Shown: positions 21,967 through 22,881 of the stretch, piece by piece
Numbering within the stretch: the first letter of the stretch is position 1
Layout of the letters: every line of letters begins with the position of its first letter
IMG/VR virus record: IMGVR_UViG_3300030451_002137
Span: 1 to 32,064 of that record
Reading direction: 5' to 3' (one strand)
Source: a virus
DNA: 32,064 nt
Notes under the pieces: generated by a model
What the model saw: the letters and a program-made list of their open reading frames with translations, nothing else
What the model was told of the DNA's origin: nothing
The model's database searches: none
Position numbers and translations under genes: made by a program

Positions 21967-21999
21967 TTTGCACTAGGTGCAAAAAAAAATTTTTTTTTA
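21967..21999. other. GCAC/GTGC hairpin followed by an A9T9 tract
   Basis: TTTGCAC-TAG-GTGCAAA forms a 7-bp stem, and nine A and nine T follow it on the plus strand, themselves a palindrome. Read rightward it could act as an imperfect terminator; read leftward it lies just after the stop of the 29-aa gene. The A/T tract is also a strong bend or easy-melting element. Confidence 0.5.
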
Positions 22000-22086
22000 T
22001 TGACACTTAGAACATAATCCATCTACAAGTTCATCTTCCCAATAAGGATTCCAACAATTATCACAATCTTGTACATGTATGTCCAT
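21997..22086 (-). CDS. 29-aa zinc-ribbon peptide
   Basis: Starts MDIHVQDCDNCWNPYW and ends DGLCSKCQ: two CxxC pairs (C8/C11 and C25/C28) with 13 residues between, a minimal zinc ribbon or rubredoxin-like knuckle. ATG is at 22086. There is no good Shine-Dalgarno at normal distance (AGGGG lies about 18 bases away, within a hairpin), so translation may be structure-controlled. It stands alone, upstream of the late block on the same strand. The pattern of four cysteines makes chance unlikely despite its length. Confidence 0.6.
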   Translation of the reverse strand: MDIHVQDCDNCWNPYWEDELVDGLCSKCQ

Positions 22087-22099
22087 AGATTTTAGTATA

Positions 22100-22129
22100 G
22101 CAACCCCTGCTGTTGCCAGTAGGGGTTGT
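22100..22129. other. Strong GC-rich hairpin
   Basis: CAACCCCT (22101-22108) pairs with AGGGGTTG (22121-22128) across a 12-base loop; flanking bases (AGTATA / TACTATA) can extend it imperfectly. No U-tract follows on either strand. It stands exactly before a CACAAACAAA leader box, where the other leaders have a promoter, so it may be a control site for the downstream RNA or the leftward 29-aa gene. Confidence 0.5.
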
Positions 22130-22143
22130 ACTATACACAAACA

Positions 22144-22207
22144 AAGAAAGGAGGGCTATGAATTAAGTTTGTTCCAGGAGGAACGAATCACTAATCATGC
22201 CTTTCTT
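22144..22207 (+). ncRNA. Candidate structured RNA A with two Shine-Dalgarno sequences
   Basis: AAGAAAGG (22144-22151) pairs with CCTTTCTT (22200-22207) to close a domain holding a second hairpin, GTTCC-AGGA-GGAAC (22171-22184). AAAGGAGGG (22147-22155) stands 2-3 bases before ATG AAT TAA, a two-codon frame, and AGGAGG (22176-22181) is in the hairpin. No real gene follows. A CACAAACAAA box like that of the early leaders precedes it. The length is tRNA-like but there is no T-arm consensus, so I do not call a tRNA. Confidence 0.4.
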
Positions 22208-22249
22208 ACTAAGTTATTATAACATAAATTAAATTAATACAAGTAAAGC

Positions 22250-22316
22250 TGCAGGGTTTCTGTGTGAATATGCGTAGGCGAAAGGAGGAAATTCCTACTA
22301 TTACAAAAACCCTGCA
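22250..22316 (+). ncRNA. Candidate structured RNA B closed by a 10-bp stem
   Basis: TGCAGGGTTT (22250-22259) and AAACCCTGCA (22307-22316) are perfectly complementary. Inside, GTAGG (22274-22278) pairs with CCTAC (22294-22298), and between them lies GAAAGGAGG (22280-22288), a complete Shine-Dalgarno. Only a 21-codon frame (22270-22335) crosses it, starting upstream of this SD, so the SD serves no visible start. The long closing stem indicates a selected RNA structure or a DNA cruciform site. Confidence 0.45.
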
Positions 22317-22681
22317 CTTAAATAATAGCATTTAAAAAGAAAGGTGGTATAGTAGGAAAACAAGCAGAGGTTTCTTCTTGCTTTTAGAAAAGGAATCTTG
22401 ACAATAAAGACAGCAAACAAAGTGGATTAGCAAGACCATGATAACTTGGGTAATAGCCAATTACTTCACATATTGAAAATGAAATCAGTAATCATCTTTA
22501 CTGCTGTAAGTTAAAGAAAAGAGCTAATCAAAAGCGACAGACTAAGGATGTATTACTGACTGTTACTAAACTTTAGTTCATTCTGGTTGGGAGGGAGTGA
22601 CACAGGGTTAGAACCACTCAATTCTTTTAATATAAAGTAATTAAACATAATCACTTTATAAGTTACCTTTACTAGCAATTA

Positions 22682-22881
22682 GGTACACCACTATATGTAG
22701 TACCTCTATATAGAGTACCCCTTAACAGCATATATTTAGAGGGTGTACATACATACATAAGGCACCCCACATTTAACCCCCCTATATCTTGTATATCCCA
22801 TAAAACCACTATATATTGTGGTACTATATGCGGTAGTATTTGCCTACATACATACCATATGTTGTGCCACTAGATGTAGTA
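22682..22881. repeat. Cluster of inverted/direct repeats (ACTA...TAGT), operator- or origin-like
   Basis: CCACTATATGTAGTA (22688-22702) recurs with one change as CCACTAGATGTAGTA (22867-22881). Both contain ACTA-N4-TAGT palindromes, and a third, TACTA-N7-TAGTA, is at 22822-22838. Also present are GGTAC-N13-GTACC (22682-22704), the perfect palindrome CTCTATATAGAG (22704-22715), GGGTG/CACCC (22741/22763) and ACCAC/GTGGT (22805-22822). TACATACAT repeats occur at about 22746 and 22844. The arrangement fits iterons or multiple operator sites. Confidence 0.5.

Follow-up and report, generated by a model that had tools for sequence, protein, structure and literature searches.

The divergent gap between the late and early genes of a marine-type phage contains a segment, B, which we conclude is a predicted minus-strand gene for a small RNA about 73 nt long. 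Judged from this DNA and its relatives, B rather probably specifies a phage-encoded anti-Shine-Dalgarno (aSD) small RNA that would occlude ribosome-binding sites, preferentially those of early phage genes and possibly also those of host mRNAs; the neighbouring segment A is a probable second element of this strand, either a leader or a small RNA. The stretch analysed, called the window here, is a viral record of 32,064 bases. Its late genes, including the terminase, lie on the minus strand, its early genes lie on the plus strand from 23087, and A and B sit in the gap between them (Table 1).

Table 1 Features of the divergent gap, in coordinates of the window
Feature	Position	Strand	Basis or content
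PB, extended -10 promoter TGCTATTAT of B	22322..22330	-	TGnTAnnnT upstream of B in 61/68 dereplicated relatives; predicted start about 22316
Predicted small RNA B, about 73 nt, 5' end 22316	22244..22316	-	Covarying outer stem TGCAGGGTTTTTGT/ACAGAAACCCTGCA, then U-run, around the aSD hairpin
Inner hairpin GTAGG-AATTTCCTCCTTTCG-CCTAC	22274..22298	-	15-nt loop at 22293-22279, near-invariant
CCTCCTTTC, 9-nt match to 16S rRNA 3' tail (anti-SD)	22280..22288	-	Sequence; its antisense is the SD-like GAAAGGAGG
PA, TTGTAT-N15-TATAAT with extended -10 TGTTATAAT, reads into A	22216..22242	-	Extended -10 in 56/68 relatives
Segment A, long hairpin AAGAAAGG...CCTTTCTT	22138..22209	-	3' side carries CCTCCTTTC (22154-22146), then UUUGUUUG
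Middle 'SD' (22176)	22171..22184		Apex of inner hairpin GTTCC-AGGA-GGAAC; not conserved as SD
Hairpin H, GC-rich	22101..22128	-	GNRA tetraloop (GCAA) on minus

A sequence-only reading of the gap had drawn attention to three perfect Shine-Dalgarno (SD) sequences on the plus strand, AAAGGAGGG (22147), AGGAGG (22176) and GAAAGGAGG (22280), in segments closed by an 8-bp stem (AAGAAAGG/CCTTTCTT, 22142-22149 with 22200-22207) and a 10-bp stem (TGCAGGGTTT/AAACCCTGCA), and to an ATG-AAT-TAA frame. Sequences, stems and frame are all present as it described, no conserved gene follows the SD-like sites, and folding is far beyond chance when compared with shuffled sequences (z -8.4 for 22091-22240 and z -3.2 for 22247-22318). 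The concentration of SD sequences had been called odd; the sites do cluster, but the total of RGGAGG in the window is close to expectation (11 found vs 10.2 expected). Conservation separates the three sites: that of B is near-invariant, that of A is usually kept, and the middle one is not conserved. The proposal of a short structured RNA tied to the SD/anti-SD interaction, rather than a coding remnant, agrees with the turnover of starts and frames past A and with B, where no member has a start codon after GAAAGGAGG on the plus strand. What has to be revised is the strand. The letters had been taken as full anti-SD complements that might bind the 30S subunit, but for B the predicted RNA is the opposite strand, and its loop is itself the anti-SD CCUCCUUUC. 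SD-like letters between genes can reflect an antisense RNA encoded opposite them, and the three apparent sites would mostly be of this kind, having been read from the strand opposite to a conserved gene for a small RNA.

The B hairpin among relatives

No DNA relatives were found among named phages, the best terminase matches being about 22-26% identical. A terminase search gave 80 loci, about 40 of which contain a homologue of 22000-22360, and many more relatives were gathered by anchoring on hairpin B or on two conserved downstream motifs; counts across relatives refer to related sequences, not to independent events. B is present once per genome in 18 of the 20 records tested, whose terminases are 56-98% identical to that of the window. 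The B hairpin pattern has no match in prokaryote genomes (GTDB). When the pattern was relaxed, a single GTDB match appeared, in Chthoniobacter, and it was attributed to chance because its flanks are unpaired. Other stem types of B were searched for in viral contigs and none was found, no tRNA or tmRNA was detected, and Rfam, at gathering and permissive thresholds, gave no credible family and no weak match to an aSD small RNA.

The loop of B, on the minus strand, reads AGUUUCCUCCUUUCG in relatives and AAUUUCCUCCUUUCG in the window, and contains CCUCCUUUC, the anti-Shine-Dalgarno sequence that many bacteria have as the 3' tail of their 16S rRNA. These 15 nt remain near-invariant when about 90 distinct sequences are compared. 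Some of the relatives were gathered by means of a pattern of which the loop formed part; sets anchored on the terminase or on E give the same loop, and a scan allowing loop changes but demanding GGAGG agrees with them. The loop variants seen (the window, L009, L067/L209 and L237) are all outside the 9-nt match to the 16S tail, and where the loop is one base shorter (L250), the missing base is outside the aSD core. Around the loop, the inner stem covaries (GTAGG/CCTAC, GTAAG/CTTAC, GTGGG/CCCAC, GTGAG/CTCAC and GTTGG/CCAAC), and the outer stem turns over almost completely among relatives while the loop stays. RNAalifold on a wide alignment recovered the inner stem only; the outer stems, which do not align across lineages, were assessed instead by a per-sequence stem search and in a homogeneous subset. 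Covariation of the stems in relatives, the check suggested beforehand, is found for the stems of B. Two marks of aSD-loop small RNAs are present at B: a CCUCC-type motif in the unpaired loop of a covarying hairpin, and an own promoter and terminator, the latter two as sequence signals.

Some relatives without B (L199, L208/L233 and L210) have different hairpins behind TATAAT-like boxes (TGCTATAAT in L210), with loops UUUUACCUCCUUU, UUGCCUCCUU and GUUUCCUCCUUUA that contain CCUCCUU, which gives the appearance of a replaced aSD small RNA. Over all loci collected, the box-plus-hairpin arrangement occurs in 18 distinct forms with CCTCCTT, compared with at most 2 for each of 32 same-composition permutations, namely those that do not overlap the B loop. 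Because CCUCCUU loops recur in this way on different hairpins, the loop rather than the remainder of the RNA appears to be selected.

Strand and termination of B

A pair that is G-U in the RNA of one strand is A-C in that of the other, so that wobble pairs reveal the strand of B. The strand was tested because B is flipped relative to A in two relatives (L064 and L146) and because B, as read on the plus strand, is antisense to both flanking genes in L126-type loci (L096/L126/L130/L136/L141/L152). Read on the plus strand, the internal non-Watson-Crick positions of 57 distinct outer stems comprise 41 A-C (G-U on the minus strand) vs 2 G-T. Pairing judged sequence by sequence is better on the minus strand in 42/47 and on the plus strand in 4/47, and in the homogeneous subset 96.9% of cells are paired on minus vs 90.7% on plus, both far above slid controls. 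The folding energy of B is equal on both strands. An extended -10 element (TGnTAnnnT) precedes B on the minus strand in 61/68 relatives and on the plus strand in 3/68 (shuffle mean 5.3), and a U-run follows the outer stem in 44/47. In the L126/L130/L152 lineage, the B hairpin is found between a TGnTAnAAT-like box and a separate strong minus-strand terminator (T7-9), flanked by genes of its own strand. Since wobble pairs, promoter, U-run and this genomic context agree, B is assigned to the minus strand. We note that PB has no good -35 box, that a consensus scan called neither PA nor PB, and that after many outer stems the U-run amounts to just three or four residues; termination at B may be partial.

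The strand also bears on an alternative that we regard as unlikely, in which the plus strand is functional as a 30S-binding decoy or as a 5' stabiliser with untranslated SDs, as is STAB-SD of the Bacillus cry3A mRNA. Perfect GAAAGGAGG sequences lacking start codons and the better folding of A on the plus strand would suit such a role, and STAB-SD does bind the 30S subunit without translation (PMC4113751). However, the conserved structure, promoter and U-tail of B, like its wobble pairs, are all on the minus strand, its plus strand would be antisense to both neighbours in L126-type phages, and it is flipped relative to A in L064/L146. STAB-SD resembles the present case in being an untranslated SD-like sequence (PMC4113751). 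The polarity is opposite: the SD of STAB-SD belongs to the transcribed strand, close to the 5' end of its mRNA, whereas the SD-like letters at B lie antisense to the predicted RNA, whose structure and promoters are on the CCUCC strand. The ribosome-decoy and 5'-stabiliser ideas, which we had followed in the literature, were set aside once the strand was turned. On the plus strand, B could by energy also form a GNRA/bulge fold (GGAG-GAAA-CUCC), which was rejected on covariation.

It is improbable, in our judgement, that A and B are merely terminators or 5' leaders of leftward transcripts with an incidental CCUCC loop. Such a role would account for the U-runs after the stem and for the position of A directly downstream of PA, yet terminator loops need no conservation and the B loop stays near-invariant even where the stems of different lineages are unrelated; moreover, in L126-type phages B precedes a separate strong terminator. 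As a side observation, the B gene is inverted in place together with its promoter relative to A in L064 (360-441) and L146 (10205-10286), which suggests that B is an autonomous unit.

Predicted targets and known aSD RNAs

For early genes of the window, the B loop is predicted to pair with sites such as TTGGAGGAATCATG and AGAGGAGGAATAATG at -14 to -15 kcal/mol, more strongly than a generic 16S tail used for comparison at the same sites (-11.6 to -12.6), and for most late genes the values are -3 to -9 (exceptions, 7882 and 8073). Over 73 loci, with gene starts called crudely, the mean loop-RBS energy is -10.4 kcal/mol for 377 early-side ORFs vs -5.6 for 176 late-side ORFs, and -10.5 vs -6.0 when only ORFs of at least 120 codons are taken, a contrast that mostly mirrors SD strength and would in part be seen with any CCUCC loop. 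On early genes, the native flanks of CCUCC outperform 40/40 shuffled flanks. As the early (rightward) genes have strong GGAGG(AA) sites and the late genes mostly do not, early mRNAs, together with host mRNAs with strong SDs, would be the likeliest targets.

Alternatively, by mimicking the 16S 3' end, the conserved loop of B might bind not mRNA but a protein, e.g. S1, bS21, IF3 or a phage factor. Near-identity at all 15 loop positions exceeds what SD pairing needs and speaks for such a mimic; the loop flanks UUU and UUUC, however, give better pairing with early ribosome-binding sites than shuffled flanks, and the alternative hairpins keep CCUCCUU, not the whole loop. We consider protein binding unlikely and prefer pairing with mRNA. 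In the action proposed for B, the RNA would be transcribed leftward from the extended -10 element, with the GC-rich outer stem and U-run as terminator. The hairpin would display the 15-nt loop that copies the 16S rRNA 3' tail (CCUCCUUUC), and the loop would pair in trans with ribosome-binding sites (AAAGGAGGAA) and block 30S binding. The likeliest effect would be lowered translation of early phage mRNAs and strong-SD host mRNAs, with late mRNAs spared. A wider picture, which we offer as a tentative possibility, is a lineage-wide switch in which a 16S-tail-copying RNA, made from a promoter that points leftward where early and late genes meet, would out-compete the 30S subunit at the GGAGGAA sites of early (and host) mRNAs, weak-SD late mRNAs would escape, and the aSD loop would have been re-invented on unrelated hairpins. 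If a widespread lineage of uncultured marine phages does encode a near-invariant aSD small RNA, these viruses would have a means of controlling translation broadly through rRNA mimicry, and early-gene switch-off in them could be tested with one 73-nt RNA.

The cuckoo/CcsR RNAs of Rhodobacter carry an aSD signature common to several small RNAs; they are bacterial, and no sequence relation to B was found (no Rfam match). The SisA-D small RNAs of Caulobacter share the aSD signature (PMC12559287); these are likewise bacterial and without a sequence relation to B in Rfam. Comparable to B are alpha-r14 NfeR1 of Sinorhizobium, a trans-acting small RNA that silences mRNAs by covering the translation start, and its AbcR1/2 siblings, in which stems are variable and an unpaired aSD motif is ultraconserved (PMC10746234). 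However, NfeR1 has three hairpins, each with CCUCCUCCC, and is encoded on a bacterial chromosome, whereas B has one hairpin with a 15-nt loop, its CCUCCUUUC is identical to the 16S tail, and it is found in phages; the triple CCUCCUCCC is absent from B, which has no Rfam family at the gathering threshold and is not placed in alpha-r14. C-rich loops of the staphylococcal small RNAs IsrR and RsaE discriminate SDs in AT-rich genomes (PMC9410917), but these RNAs have several C-rich regions, are chromosomal and differ from B in architecture. The c4 antisense RNA of phages P1/P7, which blocks translation at the RBS through its loops (PMC12197685), is a phage RNA like B, but it has one mRNA target (ant) and is not a 16S-tail mimic. 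Taken together, B would act like bacterial aSD small RNAs, a kind known in bacteria, but lies outside the known families. We found no phage-encoded 16S-tail mimic in the open-access literature, which is weak evidence of novelty as subscription papers are mostly outside that scope.

Segment A and neighbouring elements

On the minus strand, segment A starts about where PA would begin transcription, and an extended -10 element lies ahead of it in 56/68 relatives, compared with 3/68 on the plus strand (shuffle mean 6.7). The minus strand of A carries CCUCC in 40/68 and a weaker UCCUU/CUCC tract in 14/68. By energy, A folds better on the plus strand in 20/21, and its wobble counts are about even (G-U/A-C, 6:4), so that the promoter is what assigns its strand. 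We take A, with its weaker aSD tract, for a probable second leader or small RNA of the minus strand, although its strand is less certain than that of B.

On the plus strand, starts and frames past the SD of A are not conserved: lengths run from 2 to >30 codons, close relatives differ by frame-changing indels, and one clade has no start codon at all after this SD. This turnover ruled out a coding explanation for A. A scar of deleted genes, as had been suggested, or a plus-strand start-stop minigene site like lambda bar, is very improbable. The ATG-AAT-TAA frame is well spaced in the window (start 22159) and short frames occur in many relatives, but a bar-type minigene has a conserved start and immediate stop after the SD, and here neither start codon nor frame is conserved; a start codon is always missing at B, none of the relatives keeps an intact gene at this place, and the stems show covariation. 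The middle SD-like site reads CCAGAAGG in most relatives, and we therefore regard it as incidental.

The CACAAACAAA box at 22137, which had been likened to a box of the early genes, corresponds, when read on the minus strand, to the U-rich tract UUUGUUUGUG that follows A, and elsewhere on the plus strand the motif may belong to early-gene leaders. ACAAACAAA is enriched in the window (6 found vs 1.4 expected), mostly on the plus strand and in the early half, with positions including 23062, 23512, 27008 and 30810 (+), at least one of them in an early-gene leader. The tetraloops of hairpin H on the minus strand are GCAA (136), GCGA (18) and GTAA (5), and are of GNRA type only when read on this strand.

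Several other elements were observed nearby. At 21997-22086 on the minus strand, an ORF encoding a 29-aa zinc-ribbon-like protein (CxxC...CxxC) has no SD and an extended -10 element, TGCTATACT, 7 nt before the ATG; relatives have the same layout, which suggests leaderless translation. A separate conserved RNA is located at 22356-22606 on the plus strand, with the motif GGGAGTGRCACAGGGTTAG and long-range, pseudoknot-like covariation (CCUGC/GCAGG, CCAGC/GCUGG and CUGGC/GCCAG). It folds better on the plus strand in 70/84 and has no Rfam match. About 50 relatives have it, with its own promoter-like box, but lack A and B. An insertion of ~85 nt within it (about 22486-22568), closed by TCAGTAAT/ATTACTGA, is found in the window and L015 only among the aligned relatives. 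Downstream of this RNA, at 22690-22880, repeated palindromes of the ACTATATATAGTACC type are kept in relatives and are possible operator or origin sites.
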